Source: Diplonema papillatum (lineage: Eukaryota > Euglenozoa > Diplonemea > Diplonemida > Diplonemidae). From it: 64,000 nucleotides of DNA. The translations under genes were made by a program, and so were the position numbers. The notes beneath the pieces are model-generated. The model made no database searches and had not been told where the DNA came from. It saw nothing but the letters and a program-made list of their open reading frames with translations. The DNA lies in assembly GCA_030068145.1 (NCBI GenBank), contig JAPJBO010000561.1, positions 1 through 64,000 on the forward strand, given 5' to 3'. Of this stretch, positions 2,617 to 51,393 are shown piece by piece. Position 1 is the stretch's first letter, and each line of letters starts with the position of its first letter.

Positions 2617-5600
2617 GATCGGTTGACTCTTGGCTGATGATTGGAACGTGAGTCGGGGTGGCTGGGTCCCGTATTATCGGCAAGGGTGTCGGGGGGCTCG
2701 CCGGTGCGGGAAGACTGTTCCGCCGCCGCGTCCTCTTCTCTGCAGACTCCCGCTTCTGGAGAATCGCCTGGGTGGAGTGGGCTTTTGCCCTCTCGTCGAC
2801 TCGCGTCGTCGTTGGCAGCGCCTTCCTCGGTACCCCCTCCAGCACCTTGTCTTCTCGTCTGCGCTCCCGATCCCGCATTGCGATACAGAACATAGCCCTT
2901 TCCGCCTCTTTGCTGATTGGCCTGCGGAAGATGGAGTCTGTGCAGACGACGAGTTGTCCGTTGTTGGGCGGTGAGTTGCCCCCGTCGTTGTTGATTGACG
3001 GGGGGTTCGTCTGAGCGGGTTCGGCTTGGGTTGTGCTTTCGGACGGGGGTTCGAACGGGAACCCCACGGTCCGCGTAGGAAGTAGAGGTGGTTGGTGGGG
3101 GTGCGCGAGGCTGTGGCCTGCCGTGCCGGGCGCGTCTGTGTCCTGATGCCAGCTTGCGCGTCGCGTGGTTAGTTGCGGTGCTGCGTCGTTGGTGCATGTC
3201 GGGGTGTCGCGTGAGGCTGGTGAAATTATGGTTGTTGTTGATGCGCGGAGTGCTGTGCTGTTGGTTCGTGGGGTCGGTTCCGCCTTCGCGTTGTGAGTAG
3301 TTGGTGGCTTTGGTTCCTGGTTGGCTCGTGCCAGCACGTCTAGCAGCGCTGGCAGGGCGTTGACCAGGGCCTCTTGGAGTGTTTGTGCGGAGAGGGGTTG
3401 GCTCGTGGCTGGGCTGGTATGCGAAGCCGAGGTGGGGGGAGGTCGGGGTGGGGTGGTCCCTTCGTTTTCAGGTACTTGTGGGCTGCCTCCTTCTCGTCCC
3501 GCCTCGTCGTCGTCGGCCGCGCCAACCAGCTCCCCCCCAGCGAACGGGGCGCCCTCGTCGAACTCGTCGATCTCCGGGCGGTCTGCGTCGAGTGCTCCGG
3601 CGATCTCCCACACCGTTGCGGCTTTGTTGCCGTGCCTCGCTTGGAACTGCTGGAAGCTGAGGCGGTCGTTGTCCTTCGGGCGTGACGGGTCGTGCCTTCG
3701 GTGTGTCTCGGCGCTTCTCAGTTCGTTGGAGAGGCGGGGGCAGCGGTTCGGTCCGGTTGGCTCAAGCGGTAGCCTCTTCGTTCGACGGATGGTCAGTCGG
3801 ATGCCGTCGTGGGTCGTGTGGTTGTATTTCCCGGGTAGAACCTCTGACTTGACCGCCCATTCGATGTGCCTCCCGTTTTTTGCGGTCTTGAAAAGTGGTT
3901 GGGCGGTCCAACCCAGGCTGTCAAGCTTGGCGCGGAGGTGGTGTGCGTTCGTACCGCATGGGACGCCGGATACCAGGAAATAGCCGACTTCCGGGGGGGC
4001 TTCGGGGAGTTGTGCCCGTAGCTGCTTTGCTTGTTCCCGACGCACCCGGATACCCAACGTCCCCCGGCAGTACGTTAGCCCCAGCTGCCAGTCGGAGATT
4101 CGGGACGCGATTTCGTGGGCCTCGTGGAGCGCCGTCCCCTCGTTGAGCATGATGTTTACGTATGGGGACGGGGTGTCGTCGTCGTGCTCGGTGCGTTCGA
4201 TGAAGCCCCCGTGCCCGCTGCAGCGCAAGACCTCTTCCTCGTTCGCTTGTGGTGTCGAGAACTCCATGCGTAGTTCCCGGTGCAGTTCCCCTTTTGTGAA
4301 CGAGGTCTCCGCACTGTCGTTCCAACAGGAGTTGATGATGTTCCTGTTTACTGTGCGGTGGAGGCAGCTTTGCGCCCACGAGTAAGGCTGTCGGGTGACT
4401 TCTTCCCAGCTGCCGCTGGTTTCCGTCCACGGAAGCACGTACCTGAAACGAGTTTCTGGCCACTCCCAGCCTCCGTATAGCTTGTGCCCGCCTTGCTCGT
4501 CTCTGTTGTTGGCCTCTGGTTGCTGGTTCCTTTCGGGCGTTGGCCGCTGCGTGGTCCGCTTGTCGTCGACGTTCGTGCTTCCGCGGCCACTTGTGTTCGC
4601 GTGGTGGCCCGCTCTGGGGTCGCCTCCGCCAGCGTGACCTCGTCCGCCTCGTCCTCCCGCGCCCGCCGCGCTGTGCGTCGCGTGTGCTGCGCCTGGCCGT
4701 ACAACACGGACGTGGACCTTGCCCCTGCCGCCGCCGCCGCCGCCATGCATGCGCGCGCACACCGCGACTCCGGGGGACATCCCGCTTTCGAAGCCTATTG
4801 ACTCAAGCGGTTGGTCGAGGGGGAGTGGGGCGCCACTGCCGCGGATGACGTACGCCTCTAAGTTCGCTGGCATGTGGCGCTCCAGCACGTCCCCTAACCG
4901 TTCGTCGAGGTGAGCTGCGACGAGGTGTCGTTTGCCGTCTAGTCCCTGGACGAAGAAGTTCGTTCTGGCTGTCGTTTGGGCGCTGGGGCCCTTGGTGCCT
5001 TCAGGGTGTTGTTCGTCTGCTGCGGTGTGGGTCGTCGCTATGTGTGCTTCCGTTCCCGGAGGGGCTGTGGACGGTGCCGCTTGCTCGCTTCCCGGTTGTG
5101 ATGCCGTTGCTGTGGGGTGAGCGATTTCGGGCGCGATGCGGTGTAGCTGGCTGGTCGGGGCGTCGTTGCTGCGGTCTTTGCGCCTGTTCGTTGGTGGCAG
5201 CCCGGGCAGATCCGGGTCACCCGCCGGTGCAGTGCTTCTTGCCTCTTTCTCGTCGGCTGTCGTTTCCCCTATGTAGTAGTCCAGGGAGAGGTACAGCGGG
5301 CCGGCGGGTTGGGCGGAGTGTTGAGTCGTGGCGCCGGGAGTGGTCTCTTGTGCAAAGATGAGCATTTCCCTGCTCTGCGCCCTGTGCTCCCTTTTGCGGT
5401 TGTCCTCCTCTTGCTTCGTTCGCTGTCGGGCGAGCCTGCGGTCGTAGTCTCGGTGGAGACGGCGCTGCTTTCGAGTGAGGGAGCGGAGTAGGATGTACCG
5501 GGGAGGCAGGAGTACCGGTGTGGCTGCGGCGTGGCGTGAGAGGCTGCTAGGTCGTCGCGGGTTGGTGTTTTGTGTTCCGGCCGAGGTGACGGTTGAGGGG

Positions 5601-5872
5601 CGGATTGGCGGTGACCAATTGTAGACTTCCCTGGTGCTGTGAGGCGTGTCACGTTGGTGTCCTGCCTTTGTCGTGGGTTGGACCGGGGGTCTCGGCTGGT
5701 GCGTCGTGTTGCCTTGCGTCAGCCCGCCTCCCGGTTCCTGCACGTGCCCCAAGGGCTCGTCGTGCGTCTTCGTTGCGCCGCCGCCGTTGCTGTTTGGCGG
5801 CGGCGTTGCCAGTGCGGCGGCTAGTGCGACCAGGAGCATCACGCCGGGCGGGGTGTCGCCGTGTGCCTTCAT
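2498..5872 (-). CDS. LINE-A ORF1 protein with ubiquitin-like domain and RRM-like region
   Basis: An open frame of 1,124 codons from the ATG at 5,872-5,870 to the TGA at 2,500-2,498. The frame is open further upstream only because the 13-bp array has no stops, so I chose the first Met after the array. Order of regions: Pro/Thr/Arg-rich N-terminus; ubiquitin-like domain (residues about 306-378) ending in M-H-G-G-G and a glycine run; a Gly-rich basic spacer; a domain starting near Y-G-G-W-E-W-P; an RRM-like segment around V-G-Y-F-L-V-S-G-V-P with a second strand-rich part to about residue 780; then a long low-complexity Pro/Thr/Arg tail. ORF1 proteins of LINEs usually bind RNA and chaperone the RT particle. 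The ubiquitin-like insertion is unusual. The last 119 bases overlap ORF2. Confidence 0.75.
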   Translation of the reverse strand: MKAHGDTPPGVMLLVALAAALATPPPNSNGGGATKTHDEPLGHVQEPGGGLTQGNTTHQPRPPVQPTTKAGHQRDTPHSTREVYNWSPPIRPSTVTSAGTQNTNPRRPSSLSRHAAATPVLLPPRYILLRSLTRKQRRLHRDYDRRLARQRTKQEEDNRKREHRAQSREMLIFAQETTPGATTQHSAQPAGPLYLSLDYYIGETTADEKEARSTAPAGDPDLPGLPPTNRRKDRSNDAPTSQLHRIAPEIAHPTATASQPGSEQAAPSTAPPGTEAHIATTHTAADEQHPEGTKGPSAQTTARTNFFVQGLDGKRHLVAAHLDERLGDVLERHMPANLEAYVIRGSGAPLPLDQPLESIGFESGMSPGVAVCARMHGGGGGGRGKVHVRVVRPGAAHATHSAAGAGGRGGRGHAGGGDPRAGHHANTSGRGSTNVDDKRTTQRPTPERNQQPEANNRDEQGGHKLYGGWEWPETRFRYVLPWTETSGSWEEVTRQPYSWAQSCLHRTVNRNIINSCWNDSAETSFTKGELHRELRMEFSTPQANEEEVLRCSGHGGFIERTEHDDDTPSPYVNIMLNEGTALHEAHEIASRISDWQLGLTYCRGTLGIRVRREQAKQLRAQLPEAPPEVGYFLVSGVPCGTNAHHLRAKLDSLGWTAQPLFKTAKNGRHIEWAVKSEVLPGKYNHTTHDGIRLTIRRTKRLPLEPTGPNRCPRLSNELRSAETHRRHDPSRPKDNDRLSFQQFQARHGNKAATVWEIAGALDADRPEIDEFDEGAPFAGGELVGAADDDEAGREGGSPQVPENEGTTPPRPPPTSASHTSPATSQPLSAQTLQEALVNALPALLDVLARANQEPKPPTTHNAKAEPTPRTNSTALRASTTTIISPASRDTPTCTNDAAPQLTTRRASWHQDTDAPGTAGHSLAHPHQPPLLPTRTVGFPFEPPSESTTQAEPAQTNPPSINNDGGNSPPNNGQLVVCTDSIFRRPISKEAERAMFCIAMRDRERRREDKVLEGVPRKALPTTTRVDERAKAHSTQAILQKRESAEKRTRRRNSLPAPASPPTPLPIIRDPATPTHVPIISQESTDLMAGDEPQGTEAQPGDGRNSPSRRPEGPKASQPPRPQTN
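4727..4960 (-). other. Ubiquitin-like (beta-grasp) domain inside LINE-A ORF1
   Basis: The translated segment begins N-F-F-V-Q-G-L-D-G-K-R-H-L, matching the first ubiquitin hairpin pattern (hydrophobic-F-V-x-x-L-x-G-K). It continues through D-E-R-L-G-D-V-L (helix), Y-V-I-R-G-S-G-A-P-L (strand 3 and turn, compare the ubiquitin F-A-G-K-Q-L position) and L-E-S-I-G-F-E-S-G-M. It ends V-A-V-C-A-R-M-H-G-G, matching the final strand and diglycine tail. The length of about 73 residues is close to ubiquitin's 76. After the Gly-Gly the chain runs on into a glycine run and R-G-K, so any free C-terminus would need a protease cut. The fold call comes from pattern reading, not from a profile search. Confidence 0.65.
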
Positions 5873-6081
5873 GACCGTATTGTTCACACCCCTCCGCCGG
5901 GTGTGGGCCTTCACGCGCGCCGGAACGAAGGCGCTAGCCGCTGTCAGGTGGCTCTTCCCCGGACAGGAAGGTGAAGTCTGCCGGGACTTCAACTTCCGAC
6001 GCGCGGGGTGCCGACGGGTGCAGTGCCGATACGTGCACCCGGTGTGGCTCCCGCGCCAGCCGCGCCAGGCCGCGCCAGAAA

Positions 6082-6410
6082 GTTTGGGACCCAAGTTTGG
6101 GACCCAAGTTTGGGACCCAAGTTTGGGACCCAAGTTTGGGACCCAAGTTTGGGACCCAAGTTTGGGACCCAAGTTTGGGACCCAAGTTTGGGACCCAAGT
6201 TTGGGACCCAAGTTTGGGACCCAAGTTTGGGACCCAAGTTTGGGACCCCAGTTTGGGACCAAGTTTGGGACCCAAGTTTGGGACCCAAGTTTGGGACCCA
6301 AGTTTGGGACCCAAGTTTGGGACCCAAGTTTGGGACCCAAGTTGGGACCCAAGTATGGGACCCAAGTTTGGGACCCAAGTTTGAGACCCAAGTTTGGAAC
6401 TCAAGTTTTG
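6082..6410 (+). repeat. 13-bp tandem array, copy 1 (unit TTTGGGACCCAAG)
   Basis: About 25 head-to-tail copies of TTTGGGACCCAAG, with a few 12-bp or variant units near the right end (6,340-6,410). The core TTGGG-A-CCCAA is a near-perfect palindrome. Because 13 is one more than a multiple of three, all three frames of a strand read the same 13-residue repeat and no stop codon arises on either strand. The long open frames here are therefore an arithmetic artefact, not genes. The array is in inverted orientation to the large array at 7,741-10,265. Confidence 0.95.
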
Positions 6411-7460: not shown

Positions 7461-7504
7461 ACTGCTGCCTCCAGTCTCGCCACGCGCCGGCCTTAGCCGA
7501 GCGC

Positions 7505-10995: not shown

Positions 10996-11000
10996 GACCC

Positions 11001-17696: not shown

Positions 17697-18697
<1,001 letters not shown>

Positions 18698-36480: not shown

Positions 36481-36756
36481 GGCTGACAACGATGCCGAGT
36501 TTAGGGGCCTTAGCATCAGCACTGGGGGGGGTCTGGGGGGTCGACAAACACGTGCTCGGCACCCCGGTGCAAAAGACGGGTACCCGTCCATCTACATGGA
36601 CTATTGCTCTAGGCCGAAATCCCCTTATAAATCCCTGAAAAAAAGAAAAGAAAAAAAAAAAAACCCATCGAAAGAAACCGACTCCTTCCCCCCTCTTCCT
36701 ATAAACCTGCTGAAGACGATCGTGGAGACTTCAAGGACAGGGCGGCACCCCCCCCC

Positions 36757-38005: not shown

Positions 38006-38026
38006 AAAAACGCCGCAGGACCGCTT

Positions 38027-39212
38027 TTGGACCTGTCAGCCCGACACGTTGATAGACCCAAAATAAAAAATCCCACACTCGTCTCTAAATCGCCATTGAA
38101 AGTGCCTAGGAAGCACAACCATTCGAGGCGGAGTGCTGCGTCGTCTGCCACCACCGAGTCCGAAAACATGAAAGTTGACTACTTTGATGATGAACTCGAA
38201 GGTACAGACACTAAGGTAGTCGTCGGATATCCGATTCGGACAGATGACGAATGCCTTATTTTCCGACAGCGCCACTCCCAGGAAGGACCTGAACTTGTTG
38301 GTCGTTTCCCAGCGACACGGAGAGAGGGAAAGGAAGAGAAACGCTGCGACAAAGGTCATCCCAGACCCCAAGCAGCCCCAAAAACAGAGAAATCCTGCGA
38401 GAAAGGTCTTTCCAGACCCCAAGCAGCCCCAGAACAGAGGAACCGTGGAACTACTCAACGCCCGGTTCACAATGATCGACCAAAGGAGCGCGAACAAAAG
38501 AGGCCACAAAAAGAAAAACCCAGAGCACAAACACGTAAACGCCGCCAAGAAAAATCGGAAGAACGACCACGTGACTCTGAGGCAAAAAAACAAAACCAAA
38601 AAAACAAGAAAAGAGCAAAAACACGCGCCAACAGAAAAGAACGGCGAAAACAAAAAACAAAACGGCCCAAATCTGACACTCGATTCCTCGCCGCTTTTGT
38701 CCACACCCGCCGCCACCCTGACGACGGCGACGACGATCACGGAAGTCGAAGAAGAAGCGCGATCGAAAACTTCTGGAAGCGATACGGCACGAAGGTGTCA
38801 AATGGACGGAACAAGTGCGGGACCGACCGAAGCGACGTCGCCGACAGCACGACCGGAGTGATCTACGTGCTTCTGAACGAAGGGGGCACCGTCCTCTACG
38901 TGGGTCAGACGTCGAAGACGGCCGAGATGCGAAACAGCAAGCACTGGGAAAATCGGAACTCCAAGGGCAACCGTGTGTCGCAACAATTGCGAAAGCGAGG
39001 CCGAAAGCTCTACGCGTGTCCGATACAGAATGTTCCGGAACGGCTGTACGTACAGCCCGCTGACTTCGCGCGCGTTGCTCTCCCTATCGAAGATTTCTGG
39101 ATCAAGTGGCTAAACCCGCCCTTGAACATGACGAATCGGCGCCACGGAGAGAGGGTCAACCGCAAGGCTGCAAAGAAGAAGAAGAGGCAACGTCCACCGC
39201 AACGCCTCCGCA
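38027..39212 (+). pseudogene. PLE polyprotein part 1: basic region and GIY-YIG endonuclease (interrupted)
   Basis: The frame opens after a TAA at 38,003. The first in-frame ATG is at 38,168. A long Lys/Arg/Gln-rich region (to about 38,750) is followed by a GIY-YIG nuclease domain: G-V-I-Y-V-L-L (about 38,855), then L-Y-V-G-Q-T (about 38,891) 11-12 residues on, then a downstream helix with R. GIY-YIG domains make the target nick in endonuclease-bearing PLEs. The frame reaches base 39,212, where LINE-D starts. The stop at 39,239 and the last residues before it belong to the inserted LINE. The matching codon phase resumes at 48,161. Confidence 0.75.
39198..39212 (+). repeat. 15-bp target site duplication, left copy (LINE-D)
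   Basis: CGCAACGCCTCCGCA here is identical to 48,147-48,161. It brackets LINE-D exactly. Confidence 0.92.
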
Positions 39213-39245
39213 GGGATTCAACACACATTATCAAAAATTAACGAA

Positions 39246-41898
39246 ATGAAGAGTGTTCTCCGGTCGAGACGCCCCGCCTCCAAGTGGCGGATCCTGGGCA
39301 CCACTCCGGTGGTGGCTGAGAGGGCGTCAGCCTGGTACCCGGGTGCGGGAGGGGACGGGTCGGCCGTGGTCCGATACGGCGCAGCGAGAAACGACGACGG
39401 CAGGATCGGTATCGCCGTCATCGCCGAAGGAAAGAAGGACCACCAGTCGTGGACCTTTGAAGAAGCGGTCGACTGCCTCGACATGGAAGAGGCGGAACTG
39501 GAAGCGGCCTGCGTGGCGCTGGAGAGGGTGTCACCGGGAGGCGCGGTGAAGCTGGTGGGCGGGATGGACAGAGTTAGACTCTGGATCTTGCGGCAGGTGG
39601 CGTGCCCGCACAGGCTGCTGGGAAGGACGAGGCGTGCGCAGCAGCTGCTCGGGGAAGCCAGGCGCAAGACGCGCGTGGAGATGCCCCGGACAGAGGGCGA
39701 TGTGGATGAGAAGGTGCGGGAAAGAGCTGTGGTGGCAGCGTGCAAAGGCGGGCAACGCGAGACGCGGAAGAGGAATCTGGAGGAAAGACTGGACATGTTC
39801 GGTCTGGAGGAGCGGGAAGCGGGGGCACAGGGCGACTGCCAGTTTCGTGCGGTATCGTACGCGATACACGGGACGGCGGTTCACCACGCCCAGCTGAGGA
39901 GGCTGGCGGTGGAGTCTTTGGCCGCCAGAGACATCACCGGCCGGGTCGAAGGCTGCGCCAAGCAGTACCTGGCGAGGATGGCGCGCCTTGGGACGTGGGG
40001 CGACCACCTCACGCTGCAGGCGCTGGCGTGGGAAGTCGGGCGACGGGTGGTGGTGTTCGAGCTGGCGCCCGACGACACCATGCGCGCGACAGTACTCTGG
40101 CCAGGAGAGGCGGGGAAGGCAGGCGACCTGGTGCTGGACGAGCTGGACGTCAAGCTCAGCTACACCGGGTCGCACTACAGGGCTGTGCGTTGGAGGGAGG
40201 AGGTGAAGACGGCGCCGGTACGCGCGACGCAGGTGAAGCCCCAGCTGAACGTGGGACTACCCCTGCGGACCAACAACAGCGGGCCGGAAAGGCCGACGCG
40301 ACGTCTGCCACTAGGCAACCTGCGCGGGGCGGAGTGGAAGGTGGAGACGGGGGAGGCGGAGCACTACAACCGGAGCGCAGCCGGAGTAGTGGTATGGCGC
40401 GGCGATGCGCTGGGCGCAACCGCCTTCGCCCGAAAGAACGCACAGGCGGCAGTGGTCACCACGTTCCCGGTTCCCGTGCGACATACGGAGGAACGGAGCG
40501 TCACCTGGAGGGGCGAGGGGACGGCGAGGGCGCTGTCAGTGTGGGTGTCATCACAGGCGCCTCTGGAGACGTTTTATGACGCGAAGGAGCCGAAGAGGGG
40601 TTGCCGGGGTGAGAGCGTTCAAGTCGTGGTGCAAGCGAGGCTGAAGGAGGGGGAGACGCGAGAAGGGGCCTACGTCCGGCTGTCGAAGCATTGCAAAAGG
40701 GTGCTAACCAGGTTCAGGCTGGTCGACTCGACAGCAGAGGGCATCTGCTTCGTATCGCCGGCGGAAGCGGATAAGGTGTTGAAGAGTTCGGGGGAGAGTG
40801 GGGTCTTCGTGAGGGCCTTGCACGAAGACAAGGAGAGGAGCCGCCTGGGGATGGTCTGGTTGGATTCAGAGGAGGAGGCGTCGAAGATGGCGGGTGTGCT
40901 GAGAACCGGGGGGATTACGACGATGGGACTCGGGAAGGGAGCGGACGGGAAAGTGGCAGTGCGTGTGGAGAGGGGGAAGATGGACGAGGCTTGCAGGGCG
41001 TTGGGGAGGACGAGGAGGTTTACGGTCGAGGGACCCCCTCTGGATATGACTGCGGATGAGGTCGTGAGGTCGTTGGGGGAGCAGGGCTGGCAGGCGGAGG
41101 CAAAGGAGGCGAGGGAGAGCAGGAGAGGAAAAGCGGTGTGGCTGGTCGAGGCACTGACAGCGCCGCCAGCAATGGACCTCGAAGTGGAGGGGGAGCTTTG
41201 GCTCGTGAGCCAGTCGATGTCAGCCGGGGTAGCGCGGGGGGACGGTCTGGGACGGGTCTCGGTCTTTCATGAAGAGATGGGAGACGGGGCGGAAGGAGGT
41301 CCAACCTACCACGGGACAGGGCAGGGTGTTTCGGAAAGAGGAGTTCCCAGTGTTGGAGCGTGCGGCGCAGCCTGCAAAAAACGAGGGCGCAAAAAACGGC
41401 AGAGGAGGGGGCTGGGGAAACGGCCGGCCAGGGGCGGCCGGGGGCGCAGAGAGTCCGCCGGTGGCGTTGGAAGAGGTGCTCAAGGGACTCTTCGAGGGGC
41501 TCGCAACGAAGCTGACGGCATGCTTAACCAGCGGAGGAGAGAGGGACACGGGGAGGGGCGGAGAGGACACGAAGAATGGGGCGGAGGTGGTGAGACAGAG
41601 AGAGCAAATAGAAGAGATGCGGACGGAAATGCTGCTCCTGAGGAAGGAAAACGAGGAGCTCAAAAACAGCCTGGCAGAGATGAAGGAGCTGAGGAAAGAG
41701 CTCGACGAGCAGCGAAGGGAGAACGAGGAGGTTCGGGAGACCGTGCGAGAGTTCAAGGAGCTCATGAAGCAGGCCCGACCAGCGCAGCAGAAAGAGGGCA
41801 AGGACGCGGAGATGGGCAGCCAGGCCTCCTCGGAGGAGGAGGAAGGAGCGAAGAGGAAGAAACAGAAGAGTGGCAAAGCCAAGGGGAAGCAGAAGTAG
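39246..41898 (+). CDS. LINE-D ORF1: OTU protease domain, RNA-binding-like middle and coiled coil (one frameshift)
   Basis: The ATG at 39,246 opens frame 0. Residues about 190-315 match the OTU cysteine-protease pattern: Q-G-D-C-Q-F-R-A-V-S (Asp197, Cys198), W-G-D-H-L-T-L-Q-A-L-A, and G-S-H-Y-R-A-V (His310). OTU enzymes cut ubiquitin or ubiquitin-like chains. Two strand-helix segments at about residues 455-660 look RRM-like. Near 41,230-41,340 the natural-looking protein moves to the +1 frame. The frame-0 reading becomes Gly/Arg/Glu noise, while frame +1 gives a clear heptad coiled coil (E-E-M-R-T-E-M-L-L-L-R-K-E-N-E-E-L) and a Lys-rich end at the TAG (41,896-41,898). This could be a disabling indel or a programmed shift; a G6 run at 41,235-41,240 is a candidate site. 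Confidence 0.75.
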
Positions 41899-41921
41899 GC
41901 GCCCCAGAGACGGCGGTCATT

Positions 41922-44900
41922 ATGATCGCAGTCCAAGGCGCAGCGGGTATGGAGCGGCTGGGGGAGCCCGCGCTTGTGGCCTACTGGGTGGCGGCTTTTG
42001 TCGGCGTGTTTTGCTGTGGGTACATATTCGAAGGGGTGCCATTCGACTTTTGCGAACGCTATGGCGGCGGACACCGCGTTTGTTACAGGCTCCGCGCGTA
42101 CGACAGCAGCTATCTCGCCCCTTTCATCGACGGATTTCACGGACCGCCTGTCGATCACCTTGTCGAGCGCGACGCGTCTACCGCACCCGGCAGGAGAGCC
42201 CCCCCGGCCAGCGAGGCAGGTTTGCACCGCCCCCCTGTAGACAATCGTCGTACGTGCGGCGACGTGCTTTGCTGTGGGTACATGTTCGAAGAGGTGATAT
42301 TCGGCTTTTGCGAGCGCTCTGATGACGGACACCGCGTTTGGTGCCAACTTCGCGCGTACGACGGCAGCGAGCGCGCCCCTTTCATCGACGAATTTCACGG
42401 ACCGCCTGTCGAGCACCTTGTCGAACGCGACGCGCCTACCGCACCCGACAGGAGAGCCCCCCCGGCCAGCGTGGCGGGTTTGCACCGCCCCCCTGTAGAA
42501 AATCGTCGTACGTGCGGCGACGTGCTTTGCTGTGGGTACATGTTCGAAGAGGTGATATTCGGCTTTTGCGAGCGCTCTGATGACGGACACCGCGTTTGGT
42601 GCCAACTTCGCGCGTACGACGGCAGCGAGCGCGCCCCTTTCATCGACGAATTTCACGGACCGCCTGTCGAGCACCTTGTCGAACGCGACGCGCCTACCGC
42701 ACCCGACAGGAGAGCCCCCCCGGCCAGCGTGGCGGGTTTGCACCGCCCCCCTGTACAAAATCGTCGTACGTGCGGCGACGTGCTTTGCTGTGGGTACATG
42801 TTTGAAGAGGTGTCATTCGACTTTTGCGGGCGCTCTGGTGACAGACACCGCGTTAGGTTGAGACTACGCACGTGCGACGGCAGCGATATCGCCCCAGGCA
42901 TCGGCGAATTGCGCGGACCGCCTGTCGATCATCGTGTCGGACGCGGCGCGCCTACCGCACCCGACAGGAGAGTCACCCCGGCCAGCAAGGCAGGTTTGCA
43001 CCGCCCCCCTGTAGACAATCGTCGTACTTACGTCAACGGCAGCCACGTCAAGTACGGCACGACTCTCGCATCCGGCAACGATGGTCCCCTCCACAACGAG
43101 GGTCGAGGGGCCCGGGTGCGGTTTCATAGGGACGCCGGAAAAGGATCTCTGCTGACGTGCGGGGATGTACACGAGAACCCGGGACCCGCGGTGACAGGGT
43201 GGATCGCCGCCTCCGCCAATGTCACGTCCTTGCTCGCGCACCCGGAAGTCCACACGATGGAGGCCTGGGGGAGAAAGGTGGATTTGCTGGCCTTGCAAGA
43301 AGTGAGGGTATGCGAGAGGGACAGGTCCCAGGCGGAAGGGGAAGCCCGGAGTAGAGGGAAGAGACTGGTTCGGGGACGCATGCAGAGCCAGACTAGGATA
43401 AAGACGGCTTGGCGGACGGAGTACGGGGGAGTAGCGTTCTCCGCGGCGACCGGACTGCCCGCCCGAGCGATTCCGCCGGGGGAGCTGACGAAGCGGCATT
43501 GGGAGAAAGGCAGATTCGCGCACGCACAGGTGGCGTACGGGGACGGCAGGAGGAGCCTCTCCATGTTGTCGATTTACGGGGTCGTGTCGGATGAGGACGC
43601 AACAGAGGAGATCCTGGCGGATACCCTCAGCTACGCGGCCACTCTAGGAGACGTGCCAATCCTCATTGCGGGGGATTTCAACGTCGAGCCGGAGGAAAGC
43701 CCGATTTTGAACGCGGCCGTCCAGTCCGGGAAGTGGGTCGATGTCGGCAGTACGTGGGCCAAACAGTACGCCCAGCAACCTGCGGTCACGTGCATGGCGT
43801 CGAAGAAGGGAAGGCGTATAGACGCGATCTTCGCGAACTCGGTGGCGGCGGTTGCGATATCGGGGGTGACCGTGCTGACAACCGAGTCGATACCGACTCA
43901 CAGACCAGTCGTGGTGAGGCTGGAGCTCGAGCGGTTGGAGCAGCGATACCCGCAACTGAAGCTACCGAGGACCTTCCCTGTCGCAGATTGGAGCGCGATG
44001 GACCCCGCGAAAGAATTCGGCATGGCGGAGAAATGGGCCAAGGAGGCTGCACACCGGTATCGAGCCGCGCAGGGGGTCGACGCGAAATGGAAGACGGTGT
44101 GCGATGCTGCAGAGCAGTATCTGCTGGAGAGGAGCGGAGGGCTACTGGAGAGGCCGCGCCAATACGTCGGAAGGGGGCAGCAGGCGCGAGAGAGCGTGCG
44201 CAGCCCTGCGGCGAGGCAAGTTGACGGAGAGGCGGATGCGGATGACCGGGACACGAGGGCAAGACTCGGCTCCTGCAGAAGACTCGAGGAGCTGGTGCGG
44301 CTGGGAGAAAAGCGGGACACCTGCGGCCAGCCGAGCACGGAGGAGATGAGAGTGTGGAGAAAAGCCCGCAAGGCGGGCGTCAAGCACGTCGATTCGCGCC
44401 TGTGGGAGGAGGCGAACCCGCCTGCATTGCCTGGGCTGCAGGCGCTCTGCGGCATGCTGAAGAAGGAACACGAGAGGACGCGTGCGACAAGGAGGACCAG
44501 AAGGCTGGAAACGTGGAGGGGGGAGATGCGTCGGGCGATCGATGACAACCCCAAGCGTGTCTACGACTGGTGCAAGCAGCCGGAGAGGCACAGCACCCTG
44601 TTCGTTGAGAGGGAAGACGGGTCGGTGACCGCAGATCTCCATGAGATGGATGAGATCCTGCGAGGCGAGAAGGCGTGGGGGGGCGTGTTCCAGATGTACA
44701 GGGAAGTACGGGAACCGAAGTGGGAGGACTTCGTGCAGAGGTATGGCAAGTACGTGAAGAGAGGAGCTTGCGAGGACCGCCCGTTGACCGGGGAAGACCT
44801 GAGCGCGACGCTGAAGAAGATGAAGGCGCGGAAAGCCGGGGGGATGGACGGCTGGCGAGTGTGCGAGTTGAAGGCGCTGCCGGTGCCTCTCCTCGACGTG

Positions 44901-47900
44901 ATTGCGCTGGCGCTGAACGACGTGGAGGGGACCGGCAGCTGGCCCGAAGTGGTGGCGCAGGCGCTGGTGGTGTTGATCCCGAAGGGGGAGGGTCCGCAGC
45001 CTCTCGAGCAGCGCCCGATCACGATAACGAGCGTTATGTACCGCCTCTGGGCGGCGACGCGCCTCCGTTTCGTAAGGGAGTGGCAAGAATCGTGGGCGCA
45101 CCCCGATCAACGCGGTTTCAGGAAGAAGGGAAGGACGCAGGAGGTGTACTGGCTCTTGGCGGCGAAGATGGAAGCGGCTCTGCTGAACGACGAGGATCTT
45201 TTCGCTGTGGCTTTTGACTACAGCAAGTGTTTTGACCGCATACCGCAAGAGATCATGTTGAAGCTTGTGGAAGACATGGGACTGCCGCCATCAGTGTTGA
45301 ATGCAGTGCGGGGCATGTACCGCCAGCTGAGGCGACGGTTCAAGCTGCCGGCGGGGCTTGGGAAGGAGTTCAAGGCGACGAACGGGATTCTGCAGGGCTG
45401 TCCACTGAGCGTAATCTTCCTGAACGCGCTCGTATCGGTCTGGATGTATCTTGTTGAAGAGGAGGTCCCGGGAGCCGAACCGCAAGCATTTGCGGATGAC
45501 ACCGAGGTCGTAACGAGGACGAAGCCGGATATGACGCGGGCAGTGGCTTTGACGGAGGAGTTTTGCGGCGACACGGGTCAGCGGCCCAACGCCCGAAAGA
45601 GCAAATGGACGGAAATGAGGGCTAAGCGTCCAACGGACGAGGAGGAGGGCGGCAGGAAAAGAAAGCGGAAGAGCGAAGCCGAGGCCAACCCCCAGATAGC
45701 CGGCCAGGAGGTCGAGAAGGTGGCATGGTTGAAGTGCTTGGGGGCAGGTTTGGGTACCGACGGAGGCGCCCAGAAGGTCTTGTCGATCAGGTTGGACGAG
45801 GCGTCCAAAATCGCGAAGAGGGCGGGCAAGTTGCCCCTTCCGCAGGAGAAGAAGGAGAGGATCTACGCTTCGGTCGTGATCCCGAAGGCGATTTACGGGG
45901 TAGAGGTGCAGGGGCCGGAGAAGAAGTGGCTCTCGCAGCTGACAGCTGCAATTGAAAGGGGACTTGCAGGCAGGGATAGGCGGGGACGTTGCGCCGCGAT
46001 TAGCCTCTCGCTCGTGAGGAAGGGTCACTTGGTGGATCCACCGGTGGCCGTGCACTACCGACGGGTCATGACGTGGATGGCGCTGATGAAGGATTCGGAG
46101 AGGTGCAGGGCGCACATGCAAGCGGCGGCCCACGTCTTTCCCTGCCCGAGCACCTCGGGGCCGGTACACTTGCTTGACGGGACGTTAGAGGCCATGGAAT
46201 GGCAAAGGACGGGACCGTGGTCGATCCGAATTCCCGATGACCATACAGACGAGACGGAGACGGGCGACGGGCGAGGTAAGGAAGTCGATCTGAGGACACT
46301 GGACGACCTCAAGGAGCTGGGGCACCTGGCGCGCGAAGCCCTGAGGCTCTGGCGATGGCGGAACATCGACAGGAAGAACCTGGAGGGGATTGGCGAGGGC
46401 GTGGACCGCAACGCAACGTTACGACTGCTGGATGTAGGGCGCGGTAGAGGGGATGCTAGAGGGGAACGCAACGGAGCGCCTGTCGTAAGTCTTAGCGCGT
46501 ATGAACGAGGCGTGCTCAGGCACATCATGGCGGATGCAGTGCTGCCGCAGACGCGGCTGCACCAACGGAAGATGCAGCCGAGCGCAACGTGCCGGTACTG
46601 CGGAAAGGAGGACGAGGACCACCTGCACATGTGGTGGCGATGTGAAGAGTGGGACGCCATAAGAAAGACGTATGCGGTAACCGCGCTAGAGTGGCAGGAA
46701 TGGCCGAAGTGTATGTCCGTTTGCGGGATCAAACCGAAAAGAGAGAGGGGAGGCGAAGGAGCAGGGGCATGGGTCTGCAGGGGCTTGACGCGCCAACTTG
46801 TCAACAGTGTGCAGGGCATGATGGTCCAGATCACCCTGGAGAGGCAGAGAAGGGACAAGAAGCCGGTGCAGCGGGAAAACGACGAACGTGGGCTTGCATA
46901 TCCTTGGGAGTGGGCGCCGCAGGAGACGGAAGTGATCCAGAATTCACTGGCGGAATACATGCCCAAAAACTGGAAGCATGGAAGGGCGCTATACTTAGCG
47001 TTGGCGCATTGGCTGGCGAGTCTGCGTTGGGCCAAGAGCGAGGAAAAGATGGCGGTGACGTTCATAGAACTCGCCGTCGACTTTGAGGTCGAATCCGGAA
47101 TGGACCTGCCGCGACGCGGACAGAAGGCGGTTGGGCCGGAAGACGCAGAGGACGGTGAGGAGGGCGCAGGCCAGAAAGGGGAAGCGCATGGAGGAGCTGC
47201 GCTCGCGGGAAAAATGAGGACGCTGTTGGGGATGCTCAAGACGCTCCAAGGAACCCACGATGGAGAGCTTTTGCCGACAAGAAAGAAATCAATAGGTTGG
47301 CTTCGGCGGCTCGGTGCGTCAGGACGGTGGACAGAGGGCCTGGAGAGGCGCTGTATCCTGGGCAGAGATACCCTGCAAGCGCTGCGAGGGCTCGAGGTGT
47401 CGGCAGGAGAGTACACGAAGGCAGAACACGGAAAGGTACAAGCAGAACGCAGGGAAGACGGGGAGAGACTAGGAAAATTTGATTTCAAAAAGTGGTACCC
47501 ATCGGACGAGGAAAGGGGGCGACGAGCCCAGAAGTGGTTCACCTTAGCGGAACAGGAGAGTCAGGCGGGACGAGGAGGGAGGAGCTCGAAGAGGAACACC
47601 GTCCAGGACAAGGAAGTGTCGCGAGGCGCGCCGGTGGCAGAGGACGCGAACCAGGATACGAAAACACGAGGACGACCGGCTCTGAAGAGGCCCGCGCCGC
47701 AAGCGGCGCGGGCAGCACGGAGTGCCAAGCAACGAAAGAAGAAAGACGAGGAGATTCAGATAGCACAGCAGGACGCCCGAGCCGAGGCGGCCGACGGACC
47801 ACAGAGGCGAAAGGCAGAACAGGAAAGACAGGCGCGTTCGATACGAGAAGCGACAAGCGCGGAAACGGCAGCGAGTACAGAGCAGTCGACGCGCAGGCGA

Positions 47901-48080
47901 GCAACAAAGCGGCCCGCGTCGCAGGTGGCACAGACCGAAGAAGCCCGTGAGGCAGGGAGTGGAGACGAGGTGATGCAAGTCGAAGGGGAAGCGCGAAGCG
48001 ACCAGCCCGGACGGACCAACAAGACGCAAGACCAGGCGACAAAGAGAAGGAGGGGGACGCGACCCAGAGACCCGGGCTAA
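41922..48080 (+). CDS. LINE-D ORF2: repeat N-terminus, 2A-like motif, AP endonuclease, reverse transcriptase, CCHC knuckle
   Basis: The ATG at 41,922 lies 23 bases after the ORF1 stop, in a different frame. Residues 1-370 contain four 86-residue repeats. A 2A-like motif G-D-V-H-E-N-P-G-P follows (Gly421, Pro422). The APE endonuclease is next: L-A-L-Q-E-V-R-V, L-S-I-Y-G-V, I-A-G-D-F-N-V, and a terminal T-H-R-P-V-V-V. The RT shows A-F-D-Y-S-K-C-F-D (Asp1099), G-I-L-Q-G-C-P-L-S and F-A-D-D-T-E-V-V (Asp1192, Asp1193). A CCHC knuckle C-R-Y-C-G-K-E-D-E-D-H-L-H-M-W-W-R-C begins at residue 1557. The C-terminus is a Lys/Arg/Gln-rich tail. All catalytic boxes are present, so the enzyme may be active. 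Confidence 0.85.
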   Translation: MIAVQGAAGMERLGEPALVAYWVAAFVGVFCCGYIFEGVPFDFCERYGGGHRVCYRLRAYDSSYLAPFIDGFHGPPVDHLVERDASTAPGRRAPPASEAGLHRPPVDNRRTCGDVLCCGYMFEEVIFGFCERSDDGHRVWCQLRAYDGSERAPFIDEFHGPPVEHLVERDAPTAPDRRAPPASVAGLHRPPVENRRTCGDVLCCGYMFEEVIFGFCERSDDGHRVWCQLRAYDGSERAPFIDEFHGPPVEHLVERDAPTAPDRRAPPASVAGLHRPPVQNRRTCGDVLCCGYMFEEVSFDFCGRSGDRHRVRLRLRTCDGSDIAPGIGELRGPPVDHRVGRGAPTAPDRRVTPASKAGLHRPPVDNRRTYVNGSHVKYGTTLASGNDGPLHNEGRGARVRFHRDAGKGSLLTCGDVHENPGPAVTGWIAASANVTSLLAHPEVHTMEAWGRKVDLLALQEVRVCERDRSQAEGEARSRGKRLVRGRMQSQTRIKTAWRTEYGGVAFSAATGLPARAIPPGELTKRHWEKGRFAHAQVAYGDGRRSLSMLSIYGVVSDEDATEEILADTLSYAATLGDVPILIAGDFNVEPEESPILNAAVQSGKWVDVGSTWAKQYAQQPAVTCMASKKGRRIDAIFANSVAAVAISGVTVLTTESIPTHRPVVVRLELERLEQRYPQLKLPRTFPVADWSAMDPAKEFGMAEKWAKEAAHRYRAAQGVDAKWKTVCDAAEQYLLERSGGLLERPRQYVGRGQQARESVRSPAARQVDGEADADDRDTRARLGSCRRLEELVRLGEKRDTCGQPSTEEMRVWRKARKAGVKHVDSRLWEEANPPALPGLQALCGMLKKEHERTRATRRTRRLETWRGEMRRAIDDNPKRVYDWCKQPERHSTLFVEREDGSVTADLHEMDEILRGEKAWGGVFQMYREVREPKWEDFVQRYGKYVKRGACEDRPLTGEDLSATLKKMKARKAGGMDGWRVCELKALPVPLLDVIALALNDVEGTGSWPEVVAQALVVLIPKGEGPQPLEQRPITITSVMYRLWAATRLRFVREWQESWAHPDQRGFRKKGRTQEVYWLLAAKMEAALLNDEDLFAVAFDYSKCFDRIPQEIMLKLVEDMGLPPSVLNAVRGMYRQLRRRFKLPAGLGKEFKATNGILQGCPLSVIFLNALVSVWMYLVEEEVPGAEPQAFADDTEVVTRTKPDMTRAVALTEEFCGDTGQRPNARKSKWTEMRAKRPTDEEEGGRKRKRKSEAEANPQIAGQEVEKVAWLKCLGAGLGTDGGAQKVLSIRLDEASKIAKRAGKLPLPQEKKERIYASVVIPKAIYGVEVQGPEKKWLSQLTAAIERGLAGRDRRGRCAAISLSLVRKGHLVDPPVAVHYRRVMTWMALMKDSERCRAHMQAAAHVFPCPSTSGPVHLLDGTLEAMEWQRTGPWSIRIPDDHTDETETGDGRGKEVDLRTLDDLKELGHLAREALRLWRWRNIDRKNLEGIGEGVDRNATLRLLDVGRGRGDARGERNGAPVVSLSAYERGVLRHIMADAVLPQTRLHQRKMQPSATCRYCGKEDEDHLHMWWRCEEWDAIRKTYAVTALEWQEWPKCMSVCGIKPKRERGGEGAGAWVCRGLTRQLVNSVQGMMVQITLERQRRDKKPVQRENDERGLAYPWEWAPQETEVIQNSLAEYMPKNWKHGRALYLALAHWLASLRWAKSEEKMAVTFIELAVDFEVESGMDLPRRGQKAVGPEDAEDGEEGAGQKGEAHGGAALAGKMRTLLGMLKTLQGTHDGELLPTRKKSIGWLRRLGASGRWTEGLERRCILGRDTLQALRGLEVSAGEYTKAEHGKVQAERREDGERLGKFDFKKWYPSDEERGRRAQKWFTLAEQESQAGRGGRSSKRNTVQDKEVSRGAPVAEDANQDTKTRGRPALKRPAPQAARAARSAKQRKKKDEEIQIAQQDARAEAADGPQRRKAEQERQARSIREATSAETAASTEQSTRRRATKRPASQVAQTEEAREAGSGDEVMQVEGEARSDQPGRTNKTQDQATKRRRGTRPRDPG
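41993..43025 (+). repeat. Four tandem 258-bp repeats at the start of LINE-D ORF2
   Basis: Units begin at about 41,993, 42,251, 42,509 and 42,767, with a period of 258 bp (86 codons). Units 2 and 3 are almost identical; units 1 and 4 are more diverged. In the ORF2 frame each unit has C-C-G-Y-(M/I)-F, F-C-(E/G)-R and G-L-H-R-P-P-V. Differences between units 1 and 2 do not concentrate at the third codon position of the ORF2 frame, so the block may be a regulatory array that merely stays open, not a selected protein domain. The reverse strand is also open here. Confidence 0.88.
43143..43187 (+). other. 2A-like ribosome-skipping motif
   Basis: The ORF2 frame reads G-S-L-L-T-C-G-D-V-H-E-N-P-G-P, with the Gly codon at 43,182 and the Pro codon at 43,185. 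The known 2A consensus is D-(V/I)-E-x-N-P-G-P preceded by a Leu-rich helix. Here His stands in place of the conserved Glu and a Glu stands at the variable position. 2A-like motifs near the N-terminus of ORF2 have been described in other APE-type LINEs. If active, it would release a 421-residue repeat protein from the APE-RT enzyme. The His substitution may lower activity. Confidence 0.65.
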
Positions 48081-48146
48081 GTAGCCTGGAACTAGTGTGA
48101 TGGACCTTTCTTCGGAGGGGCTCACGCACTCAAAGATCGACTTATA

Positions 48147-48161
48147 CGCAACGCCTCCGCA
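48147..48161 (+). repeat. 15-bp target site duplication, right copy (LINE-D)
   Basis: This is identical to 39,198-39,212. The PLE reading frame resumes in the same codon phase at 48,161. Confidence 0.92.
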
Positions 48162-50221
48162 AACGACGCACCGACGGCAACGTCTGGCACCGCATGGTAA
48201 ACGGTGAACTCCACATTGGCACCTCCCCGGGCTTCTGTTCTGGGTTGAGGAAACAATTGGACCACCTGCTGACACTCCCACAGGACCGGTTGGGAACATA
48301 CGACATGGCAACATGACACCCCAATCGCGCCCTACGCCTCCGCACGTGGCTGAGAACCTTCGTTCGAGGAAAGGACGTAACGGAAAAAGTACGTACCCTC
48401 GAGCGGCTCCTCAGTACGCGCATTCGCAACAGAACCGAGAAGCCGGCAGCCCCCCCACGACGATATTTTAAGCTGACACACCATCACCCGGCACAAGACC
48501 GAACAGCAATAGCCGGCGTCTTGTCACGCGCACGGGTTCGCGAAACATGCCCCAACCCGGCCGTCCTCAAAAACCTCATGGTGAGCAACCGACTGAAGCC
48601 ACCTCTGGTAACCCTCGTCAGCAACGTCACCGAAGTAAGTTACGAAGCGAACCAACCGACTAGCTCAAGCTCGGTTTGTCCATGCATGCAGCATCTAACA
48701 CCACACCGCGCGGACCTTGGTGGACACGCTTTAGGACTTGCAACGGACCTGAAGACCGACGAAGCCCTCCTTTCGCTCTTTCGGAAAGGACGCAAGTACC
48801 GAGTCGCGAGTAGCCCGATGACGATGTACGACTCGATAAGGCACGACGTCGAGGAATTCGTGAACTCGAACTTCCCGAAATCGAGCGAGGAGGAGAAGAC
48901 CAGATTTACAACGACTCTGGTCGAAGAGTTCGACGCCGTCCTTGGAACGCTCAACGCACACACCGACGAACCTCAACTCCGAGACGCCATACGAACCCTG
49001 AAAAAGCTCCAGGAGCACCTCGTATTTCTCCCTGTTGATAAGACGTCCCATGACTTTGGGTTTATCTGCAAGGAAAAGTACAAGGAACTTTTACGGAGCG
49101 AGTTACAAGAGAGCTCAACGTACCAGGAAGTTGGCGAGTCGATTGAAGACGTGCTCAAACGACACCATGACTTCAACAAGTCACATCAATTCACACACAC
49201 CAACATCCTACCGTACCTTTACGGCATCCCGAAACTCCATAAACCCGAGCCACGGATGCGGTACATTGCCGGCGTGTCGGAGAAAGGGAACATTGAGAAG
49301 AAAAACGAACAGAAGGACCGAGACGAAAAAGGCCGCGACAAGAAACGAGTGAAGACACGTGCATCAACTACCCCTGCCCACCAAGAAGCCTCCGGTTTGC
49401 TGAAGCTGGTTCTAGCCACGCTCCGAAGCAAGGACGAAGCGACGTTTTCGCAAACGGGGATACGTCGTTTCTTCGTCGTCGAGTCGGTCGATGACGTAGC
49501 AGTGCACGTAAAGACGAACTACGCACGACTTCGCAAAAAGACGCCACGAACTTTCGATTTCAAAGAAATGTACACAAAGATTCCGCAGAATCAGATCGTT
49601 GACTATGTCATGTCTGCAGTTGCGGAGGCTTTCGAGTACATGACGTCCGAAAAAGGAGCGAACGTGGAAGCCCAACGAGCCAAGCACCGTTTCGAGTTTG
49701 GGAAACCAGACGAATCGAACACAACCTCCTACAGTGTCGCAGAGATTCGGGAACTGGTCGAATTCATTGTCGGTAACACCTTCGTCACGAACGGCGGAAA
49801 GTGCTACCAGCAGGTCACAGGAATCCCCATGGGCGGCAATGCAAGCCCGGACCTCGCCAACCTATACTGCTACTGGTGCGAAAAGCAGTACATCGACGGC
49901 CTGGTCGCAAACGGATTGCAAGAAGAAGCCAGGAATCACGCCGACAGCGTCAGATTCATTGATGACTTCTTGACCTGGGGCGTTCGACCACCGCCGGAAT
50001 CTGTCTACGGCATGGAGTACGGAGAAACATCGAAAGGTGTCGACGACGTAGTCTTTTTGGGGATGCGGATCCGGATGGAGAGGGATACCAAAACGGACTT
50101 CATTCGGATGTCCGTCCTGGACAAGGGTGAGGAATTCCCCTGGTATCCGATCAAGTACACGCACGTCGAATCAACGGTACCACGGAACACCGGAACCTAT
50201 GTAACAATATGCCAGATCTGA
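48162..50221 (+). pseudogene. PLE polyprotein part 2: Penelope-type reverse transcriptase (one in-frame TGA)
   Basis: The frame continues from the GIY-YIG part, has a single TGA at 48,314-48,316, then is open to the TGA at 50,219. It shows PLE RT features: F-L-P-V-D-K-T-S-H-D-F-G-F-I (N-terminal RT box), L-Y-G-I-P-K-L-H-K, F-D-F-K-E-M-Y-T-K-I-P (motif A region), G-I-P-M-G-G-N-A-S-P (motif B) and R-F-I-D-D-F-L-T-W-G (motif C, about 49,951). A Lys/Glu-rich insert lies at about 49,285-49,350. PLE RTs are related to telomerase and prime on nicked chromosomal DNA. The downstream thumb seems to continue in the next frame (see the USP entry), so a small frameshift near 50,200 is likely. Confidence 0.8.
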
Positions 50222-51393
50222 AAGTCGAGCTCATGAAGGTCCACTACCGACTCCGCAACCGTGGATTCTCTGGACGGGAACTCCGACACACGTTCGACAC
50301 GTTCGTTGCGCAAACGTACGGGAAGTACGAACTGGATGCGCGAGTTCTATCACGGTTCTACCACTTCGTCGGAAAGGCCTTTGACGAAGGACGCTCGACC
50401 AACGAAGAGAAACCGTACATCAGCATCCGTTCACCGCAACCACCCGATGTTTCACCGAGACCTCCACCCGGGAGAACCTCGCCGCAGAAAACGTCGCCAC
50501 ACAAACCCGAACCCACCAGCACTACGCACCTTGCGACGAAGCCAACAAACCCACCTGGACGCAACGGCATAAGGAACATCCGCAACTCATGTTTCTTTGC
50601 CGCCAGCGTTCAGTTCCTGGCGCGAAGGACCTCCTTCCGACTGCAGCTCGCAGGCCTTTCGCACCCGAACACCAACCAGTTGAAGGTGCAGCAGCTGTTC
50701 ACGGATTTCGACGCAGGCCGTGACATCCACGGAACAATGGCCACACTACGAAGCCTTGTCTTCGACACGACGACAGACGACTCCGCGCAGCGGGACGTGC
50801 ACGAACTGTTGACGTGGATACGCTCTTGCGTAACGGACGACGACGACGACCAAGCGACGGTGACATACTCCCGACTGACAACGTGTACAACATGCGAAGA
50901 GTCTTCACGAGCACTGCCGGCGTCAGAACCGTTCCTGATGGTTGAACTCAAAAACAGGGAGAAGCCCTACACCGAGTCAGTAGAGGATCTGATAAAGAAA
51001 GTGAAAAACAAGAGAGCAACCAAAGTGGACGACTTCCCCTGTAGCACCTGCAACAAAAGGACCGTTGGACTCACGAAGGAGTATTACACATTTCCAAACC
51101 AAATGGATGTAGTACTGCAACGAGCACAGCTGTCGAAAAAAACACGCGAAGACATCAAAATACCAGCCCGCACCCCGATCCGACCAACCATTCTGATCGG
51201 GGAAGACTCCTACACGGTAAATGGCTTCATCATCCACACCGGAAGAGCGACGGCGGGTCATTACTATACCGTGCGAAAGGAAAATGACGAATGGGTGTGC
51301 TTCGACGACCAGCAGGTATTCGTACTCTCATGGGAGGAATGTGCCAGAAGATTCACAACGAATGGCTACATCATCTCTCTCGAGAAAGCGTAA
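50209..51393 (+). CDS. PLE polyprotein part 3: RT thumb remnant and ubiquitin-specific protease (USP, peptidase C19)
   Basis: A 394-codon frame, ATG at 50,209 and TAA at 51,391, overlapping the RT frame by 13 bases. Residues 1-60 (V-E-L-M-K-V-H-Y-R-L-R-N-R-G-F-S) look like the thumb end of a PLE RT, and a Pro-rich linker follows. From about residue 118 it reads as a USP: Cys box G-I-R-N-I-R-N-S-C-F-F-A-A-S-V-Q-F-L (Cys128), two C-x2-C pairs (C-T-T-C about 228, C-S-T-C about 280) as in the USP zinc ribbon, and His box G-H-Y-Y-T-V-R...W-V-C-F-D-D-Q-Q-V (His351, Asp366). USPs remove ubiquitin from proteins. All catalytic residues are present and the domain is compact (about 270 residues). It is the last coding part before the right terminal repeat. 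Confidence 0.82.
   Translation: MPDLKVELMKVHYRLRNRGFSGRELRHTFDTFVAQTYGKYELDARVLSRFYHFVGKAFDEGRSTNEEKPYISIRSPQPPDVSPRPPPGRTSPQKTSPHKPEPTSTTHLATKPTNPPGRNGIRNIRNSCFFAASVQFLARRTSFRLQLAGLSHPNTNQLKVQQLFTDFDAGRDIHGTMATLRSLVFDTTTDDSAQRDVHELLTWIRSCVTDDDDDQATVTYSRLTTCTTCEESSRALPASEPFLMVELKNREKPYTESVEDLIKKVKNKRATKVDDFPCSTCNKRTVGLTKEYYTFPNQMDVVLQRAQLSKKTREDIKIPARTPIRPTILIGEDSYTVNGFIIHTGRATAGHYYTVRKENDEWVCFDDQQVFVLSWEECARRFTTNGYIISLEKA

Follow-up and report, generated by a model that had tools for sequence, protein, structure and literature searches.

Deubiquitinase-like domains in LINE and Penelope-like retroelements of Diplonema papillatum

A Penelope-like element interrupted by LINE-D

The stretch of Diplonema papillatum DNA analysed here (the window; 64,000 nucleotides of contig JAPJBO010000561.1, C561:1-64000) carries two long interspersed nuclear elements (LINEs), LINE-A and LINE-D, and a Penelope-like element (PLE) into which LINE-D is inserted. 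An earlier note described these as three unrelated retroelements, each with a different module of the ubiquitin system, namely, a ubiquitin-like domain (Ubl) in open reading frame 1 (ORF1) of LINE-A, an OTU protease domain in LINE-D and a USP protease domain at the end of the PLE. We confirmed the three modules and found each of them to be multi-copy in D. papillatum, the genome searches covering an assembly of 271 Mb in 2910 contigs. According to the genome paper, transposable elements are numerous and about 2500 gene models carry annotations as retroelement-type proteins, and the words 'ubiquitin' and 'Penelope' have zero occurrences in its main text (PMC10161547). Below, L labels denote genome regions that were read, P labels protein-database entries and C labels contigs. 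The nested arrangement of the PLE and LINE-D, including the reverse transcriptase (RT) of each, is as follows:

36755..39212, + strand: 5' part of the PLE, with terminal repeat (36755-37141) and GIY-YIG frame (99% alignment to the full copy L033)
38855..39118, +: PLE GIY-YIG domain, which precedes the RT (Pfam PF01541 at 2.8e-5, exceeding the cut-off)
39198..39212, +: target-site duplication, left copy, 15 bp
39213..48146, +: LINE-D insertion inside the PLE (15-bp duplication at both ends)
39132..48080, +: single open frame of LINE-D, 2982 codons stop to stop, first Met at codon 39 (ORF list)
39765..40202, +: OTU domain of LINE-D, GAQGDCQF ... SHYRAV (Pfam 2.5e-5 alone; PDB match)
40749..41165, +: ORF1 core of LINE-D, residues 540-678 (blastp)
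42005..43027, +: four repeats of 258 bp (86 residues) that keep the LINE-D frame, located between ORF1 core and endonuclease
43215..43874, +: EEP endonuclease of LINE-D (Pfam 1.1e-5)
44982..45614, +: RT of LINE-D (Pfam 1.2e-16)
48147..48161, +: target-site duplication, right copy, 15 bp
48147..51621, +: middle part of the PLE, covering RT, thumb, USP and the first part of the 3' terminal repeat (L033 alignment)
48317..50221, +: RT frame of the PLE (ORF, protein search)
50131..51393, +: thumb and USP frame of the PLE, shifted by a deletion at ~50198 (L033 alignment)
50566..51372, +: USP (UCH) domain of the PLE (Pfam 4.1e-17)
51626..54203, +: second nested LINE fragment, in the 3' terminal repeat of the PLE (L033 alignment)
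54204..54481, +: remainder of the 3' terminal repeat of the PLE (L033 alignment)

The near-identical PLE copy L033 runs uninterrupted across the LINE-D site and has the 15 bp once, whereas the duplication in the window is exact. When LINE-D is removed in silico, the GIY-YIG frame (38006-39241) continues in phase into the RT frame (48317-50221), a single stop separating the two; given that the empty site restores one frame bar this stop and that L033 is continuous, a separate element encoded by the GIY-YIG frame was ruled out. A deletion of 36-37 bp near 50198 further separates the RT frame from the thumb-USP frame. With the LINE-D insertion, the stop and the deletion in its frame and a second LINE fragment in its 3' terminal repeat, the window copy is judged dead, and its USP is the C-terminal domain of a single long PLE protein. 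The second nested LINE belongs, by eye, to the same family as the RT frame in L057 and is kin to LINE-D (blastp); no target duplication of at least 6 bp was found for it. Its protein and the LINE proteins of L056, L058 and L064 end in repeated Cys/His clusters, CxxH..CxxC..CCxxxHH (by eye).

USP and OTU domains across the genome

The USP domain of the window PLE matches the UCH profile (PF00443) almost from end to end (E 4.1e-17; profile 2-251 of 254), in line with the claim that the PLE ends in a USP. Searching the protein database with the PLE protein gave 16 matches, and four of these (P0005, P0006, P0014 and P0016) match the UCH profile C-terminally to a PLE RT. The relatives are 62-82% identical to P0006 in the RT core and 22-68% in the USP, and P0006 is 82% and 70% identical to the window element in these two parts. 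Catalytic Cys and His are still kept at the lowest USP identity among the compared sequences (20%). In the five-row alignment, Cys154, His377, Cys304 and Cys307 are invariant and the third catalytic position is Asp or Asn; the second CxxC is invariant and the first is incomplete in P0016. We take Cys154 and His377 to be catalytic and the CxxC residues to be those of the finger. Three NCBI gene models with host-protein names (P0009, P0010 and P0011) contain PLE RT pieces, indicating that the annotation of D. papillatum fuses element and host exons; since their names and domains show that they join PLE pieces to host genes, they were left out of the tally of USP losses.

In the genome, the best 100 of 1538 candidate places were scored for the USP, so that the counts are lower bounds. 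The USP lies in a PLE frame at 100/100 of these places, 99 of them with a stop-free stretch; one is 100% identical (the window itself), 19 are 96-99%, 44 are 87-89%, one is 81% and 35 are 68-69% identical. Among 12 PLE regions fetched, most of them picked for long open frames, 10 contain continuous GIY-YIG-RT-thumb-USP frames of 1417-1513 codons, representing three subfamilies, and both continuous frames scanned with Pfam exceed the cut-offs for GIY-YIG and UCH. That the USP arose as a chimera of the assembly or of gene models was ruled out, the same joint being present in continuous frames on different contigs. L032 is a 6286-bp element with a 436-bp direct terminal repeat identical at both ends, and the L038/L039 family has a 388-bp terminal repeat and forms head-to-tail arrays with spacings of 5726 (C510) and 5850 (C2819). 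No hammerhead ribozyme was matched by Rfam up to E 0.5 in L032, L035 and L039, where the repeats gave only sub-cut-off matches.

Nonsynonymous to synonymous rate ratios (dN/dS) were estimated by NG86 for five between-subfamily PLE pairs, with YN00 as a second estimate for L032/L033. This is the sole unsaturated USP pair, with a USP ratio of 0.25 (dS 0.23; YN00 0.30); the other four give 0.10-0.15 at dS >1.5. Across the same five pairs, the ratios are 0.07-0.12 for the RT, 0.02-0.07 for the thumb, 0.03-0.10 for the GIY-YIG, 0.23-0.63 for the linker and 0.45-0.55 for the N-terminal part.

The OTU domain of LINE-D likewise holds up as the earlier note had it. It scores 25.2 bits (2.5e-5) alone and 18.8 bits (0.0024) within the whole protein against PF02338 (cut-off 23.3 bits), and has a Cys in QGDC and a C-terminal His in SHYRAV; a single-sequence fold was poor and was not used. 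A genome search with OTU and ORF1 core yielded 85 matches, of which 5 at 100% and 20 at 88-89% identity over residues 1-510 represent 25 near-complete copies, the remainder being partial, often decayed copies, with six rows at 32-33% that cover the ORF1 core alone. Between LINE-D and an 88-89% copy, the OTU dN/dS is 0.28, with few changes.

A genome search with the OTU profile, in which the best 150 of 656 candidate places were scored, shows how common such domains are: 150/150 lie above the Pfam cut-off, whereas 14 control genomes have no matches of this kind. The OTU of LINE-D scores below these best 150. The places were grouped by hand on score and matched range, and one member of each sampled group was read. 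Four groups (15, 49, 9 and 48 places, together 121/150) are represented by L054, L055, L056 and L058, all with the order OTU-EEP-RT-RNase H (Pfam). Two further groups (15 + 8; 23/150) are represented by L059 and L060, PLEs with a C-terminal OTU; GIY-YIG also precedes the RT in L059, and L060 is interrupted by the contig end. The remaining places comprise three in one unsampled group and three single ones. The OTU scores are 34.9-57.9 bits in L054-L058 and 36.4 and 39.7 bits in L059 and L060. The Cys and His motifs were seen in L054, L055, L056 (both OTUs) and L058, and the His of the L059/L060 OTU lies within YIAQVHYIP. As noted, L056 encodes two OTUs: its LINE ORF2 (218-6601) has a pair of tandem OTU domains that differ from each other. 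Of four OTU LINE regions looked at, three (L061, L062 and L063, but not L064) have an ORF1-like frame upstream of ORF2; in these LINEs the OTU thus begins ORF2, unlike the OTU of LINE-D, which comes before the ORF1 core. No Ubl that could serve for processing in cis was seen by eye in the three upstream ORF1-like frames.

The relations among these elements suggest that the domains have been moved around. In a 12-row tree of PLE RTs, the USP-bearing elements form a clade (96/97) joined next by the OTU-bearing P0017 (83/93), whereas the OTU-bearing L059/L060 and P0018-P0020, which have neither domain, fall outside; 2 changes account for the three states. When the two most distant rows are omitted, the USP clade has 85/94 and P0017 joins with 92/89, with long-branch warnings. 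On the simplest reading, an OTU was replaced by a USP at the same C-terminal place of the PLE protein, that is, the fold probably changed and the kind of activity stayed. In the LINEs, L056 and L054 are 41% identical in their RTs but 77% in the OTU (the first of the two in L056), which we read as exchange of an N-terminal OTU cassette between LINE families, whereas the second OTU of L056 has its nearest relative in L058 (40%), consistent with the RTs of these two (51-52%).

USP and OTU are non-homologous folds. This, together with the different positions of the modules (the C-terminal end in PLEs, the beginning of ORF2 in several LINEs, a site before the ORF1 core in LINE-D) and the occurrence of the Ubl in another LINE group, bears out the independent gains proposed in the earlier note. 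The description of the elements as unrelated is too strong for LINE-A and LINE-D. Both LINEs have ORF1, EEP and RT, as expected of EEP-type LINEs; their RTs are 22% identical (33-40% for LINE-D versus the OTU LINEs), and blastp links their ORF1 cores at 7e-5. The corresponding values are 9e-7 for LINE-A/L062 and 0.02 for LINE-D/L062, whereas LINE-D/L061 gave only 0.25, in another part. An ORF1 core is thus common, at varying strength, to every LINE group sampled whose ORF1 could be read, so that the LINEs have part of their chassis in common but differ in their modules.

The ubiquitin-like module of LINE-A

LINE-A lies at the beginning of the contig, on the other strand:

2501..6400, - strand: ORF1 of LINE-A, open frame of 1300 codons, its first part running through a 13-bp satellite (ORF list)
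4727..4969, -: Ubl of LINE-A ORF1, with the C-terminus ..ARMHGG and Gly-rich sequence after it (alignment, profile and fold matches)
3833..4261, -: ORF1 core common to LINE-A and LINE-D, LINE-A ORF1 residues 714-856 (blastp)
1..2613, -: ORF2 of LINE-A, EEP endonuclease and RT, running off the contig end (Pfam)

ORF2 matches RVT_1 (9.5e-32) and Exo_endo_phos (8.8e-14), and D. papillatum proteins match ORF1 at 100% over the region searched. A genome search with Ubl and ORF1 core gave 99 matches, with stop codons in 0/99. They include 28 full and 3 partial matches at 99-100% identity and two sets of distant families (50 rows at 39-40% and 18 at 41-42%), which start at query residue 2 or 3 and therefore include the Ubl. 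The eight Ubl pieces that were read have a common pattern and end in LGG (8/8). In a six-row alignment, F5, G12, D27, L49, L51, G76 and G77 are kept, the C-terminal Gly-Gly standing at the ubiquitin position in 6/6 rows.

The Ubl is the least certain of the three modules; its assignment as a putative ubiquitin-like fold draws on fold matches and profile rank, with non-significant E-values. Neither Pfam, which supports UCH and OTU in the other two proteins, nor a single-sequence PDB search gave a significant match to the LINE-A Ubl. With a profile, the best PDB matches were ubiquitin (E 0.31), FUBI-eS30 (0.52 and 0.53) and the unrelated eL14 (0.93). A structure model from three rows was of low confidence, and the best 50 Foldseek rows comprised 47 ubiquitin-like folds and 3 talin FERM domains. 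For the Ubl, dN/dS is 0.10-0.21 between families, at saturated dS, and 0.31-0.40 among close pairs, which have few changes; for the stretch upstream of it, the ratio is 0.49-0.69 wherever it could be computed with any change.

Several further features were recorded in passing. Positions 17699-17938 hold 120 units of an AC repeat. The 13-bp satellite beside LINE-A occupies 6080-6408 and 7750-10266, a 25-copy stretch of it lengthening the ORF1 frame, and L045 holds a similar short-unit array. In P0004, a D. papillatum gene model named 'Astacin', an astacin-like stretch (aa 77-173) adjoins a Ubl-bearing LINE ORF1; by eye, its zinc motif looks altered, and the model is a candidate fusion or an annotation artefact. 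A 489-codon open frame at 13721-15190 resembles, by eye, a LINE C-terminus with a restriction-like endonuclease, with no match in Pfam.

Possible roles of the domains

The reading that we favour, with somewhat better than even confidence, is that two classes of retroelement encode their own deubiquitinase (DUB)-type domains within their replication proteins, the likeliest role of which would be the removal of ubiquitin. In several LINE families the OTU opens ORF2, in LINE-D it precedes the ORF1 core, and PLE proteins end in a USP or OTU that follows GIY-YIG, RT and thumb. The domains themselves, their position in continuous frames, their copy number and conservation and the two alternative DUB folds in PLEs are features of the sequences, from which we infer the enzyme activity, the substrate (own ribonucleoprotein or target chromatin) and the benefit to the element. 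The domains would most likely strip ubiquitin, or a host ubiquitin-like tag, from proteins of the element ribonucleoprotein or from chromatin at the insertion site, such that host turnover or silencing would fail to stop integration. The Ubl of the separate LINE group may mimic ubiquitin from within the protein or be an N-terminal part that can be cleaved off. The case for enzyme activity lies in the apparent replacement of the fold and in the kept catalytic residues. The proposal in the earlier note that the modules strip host ubiquitin is compatible with these data and is judged the likeliest, the role itself being conjectural; a shared purpose appears strengthened, given that OTU and USP share the C-terminal place in related PLEs and that an OTU cassette looks exchanged.

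Several observations weigh against this reading. LINE-D has a Gln ahead of the Cys where OTUs usually have Asp (DGNC-type motif). The OTU of P0017 falls under the Pfam cut-off (E 0.0016; 19.4 of 23.3 bits) and is 15% identical to that of L059 (P0017 being truncated in the alignment), so unlike that a single inheritance of the two is not established. The replacement of OTU by USP depends on a tree of 10-12 rows with long-branch warnings, and dS is saturated in most comparisons. No LINE-D relative was found in the protein database among proteins of 0.55-1.75 times its length, and three scans of viral contigs (with LINE-D, the USP alignment and P0017) gave no match. Finally, enzyme activity, expression and substrate are predicted, and the domains may instead have non-proteolytic roles, such as ubiquitin binding.

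Among the alternatives, the domains could be polyprotein proteases that cut the element's own long protein, as does the PRO/DUB of turnip yellow mosaic virus, with DUB side activity being optional. The OTU and USP do lie within very long single frames (1417-2982 codons), and one viral OTU is known to combine the two activities (PMC5695851). However, the PLE domain, either USP or OTU, is at the extreme C-terminus. Moreover, DUBs are specific for the C-termini of ubiquitin-like proteins and Pfam finds no ubiquitin-like domain in these polyproteins. We consider such a role unlikely. The domains might instead read ubiquitin and thereby anchor the integration complex on ubiquitinated chromatin, catalysis being secondary; DUB folds are established to bind ubiquitin and the C-terminal position after the RT would suit tethering, but the kept catalytic residues suggest catalysis, and we regard this possibility as improbable. 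As for the Ubl, element or host DUBs could act in trans and cut LINE-A ORF1 behind the Gly-Gly, like FUBI-eS30. The Gly-Gly at the ubiquitin position and the nearest profile neighbours, ubiquitin and FUBI-eS30, fit such processing, but the Gly-Gly runs on into Gly-rich sequence, so that its conservation may reflect a linker, the E-values are non-significant, no protease was detected in LINE-A by Pfam, and LINE-A and the DUB elements share a genome only. We consider such processing quite doubtful; for the suggestion in the earlier note that cleavage occurs behind this Gly-Gly we found no support, Ubl and proteases being in different elements. That host domains were captured and carried along without use, given that elements in general take up host sequence (PMC6431247), is very improbable in view of dN/dS <0.3 in all computable USP and OTU pairs (including the two low-dS ones, USP 0.25 and OTU 0.28, the latter with few changes), the retained catalytic residues, the several subfamilies and the gain of a second OTU by an OTU-bearing element.

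A wider scenario can be put forward tentatively, and we hold it to be somewhat short of probable: ubiquitin-based host restriction of diplonemid retroelements, with at least four DUB captures, fold replacement, OTU exchange and a Ubl mimic or decoy amounting to an arms race. The four captures proposed are those of the ORF2-OTU LINEs, the LINE-D OTU, the PLE OTU and the PLE USP.

Parts of this picture have precedents. Craig et al. 2021 reportedly described PLEs in which GIY-YIG precedes the RT (Naiad/Chlamys type). The D. papillatum PLEs resemble such elements in having a PLE-type RT related to P0018-P0020, GIY-YIG before the RT, long direct terminal repeats and head-to-tail arrays, but add a C-terminal USP or, in a related family, OTU, which P0018-P0020 lack. 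Dualen/RandI LINEs may also have an OTU. The Ubl with terminal Gly-Gly ahead of a nucleic-acid-binding protein recalls FUBI-eS30, but here the protein is a LINE ORF1, the sequence match is weak and processing is only a candidate. NeSL/Utopia LINEs are known to carry a Ulp1 protease (PMC4640811) and thus also combine a LINE with an N-terminal protease of the ubiquitin/SUMO system; theirs, however, is Ulp1 with a restriction-like endonuclease, as opposed to OTU with EEP in D. papillatum. Helentrons and Ginger1 transposons carry OTU or Ulp1, and a link of ubiquitin to transposition has already been suggested (PMC4067079, PMC2836005), but these mobile elements with OTU are DNA transposons, unlike the D. 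papillatum retroelements. Similarly, a Trichomonas transposase fused to peptidase C19 (PMC2836005) is a case of a USP-family domain in a mobile element, there with a DNA transposase. Among the titles and abstracts found by searching an open-access library, none describes a USP or OTU in a PLE, an OTU in an EEP LINE or a Ubl in a LINE ORF1, which does not establish absence from print.

Ubiquitin-system proteases in DNA transposons and some restriction-endonuclease LINEs have usually been isolated cases with the role unexplained. In D. papillatum, one genome has such proteases in EEP LINEs and PLEs at high copy number, and the DUB domains of the two element classes look like working enzymes. The DUB fold was apparently replaced while the activity class was kept, which argues strongly for ubiquitin removal itself as the selected trait. 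Why transposons carry DUBs thereby becomes a question accessible to experiment in a protist that can be cultured, and the findings hint that ubiquitin may be part of the contest between the D. papillatum cell and its jumping genes.

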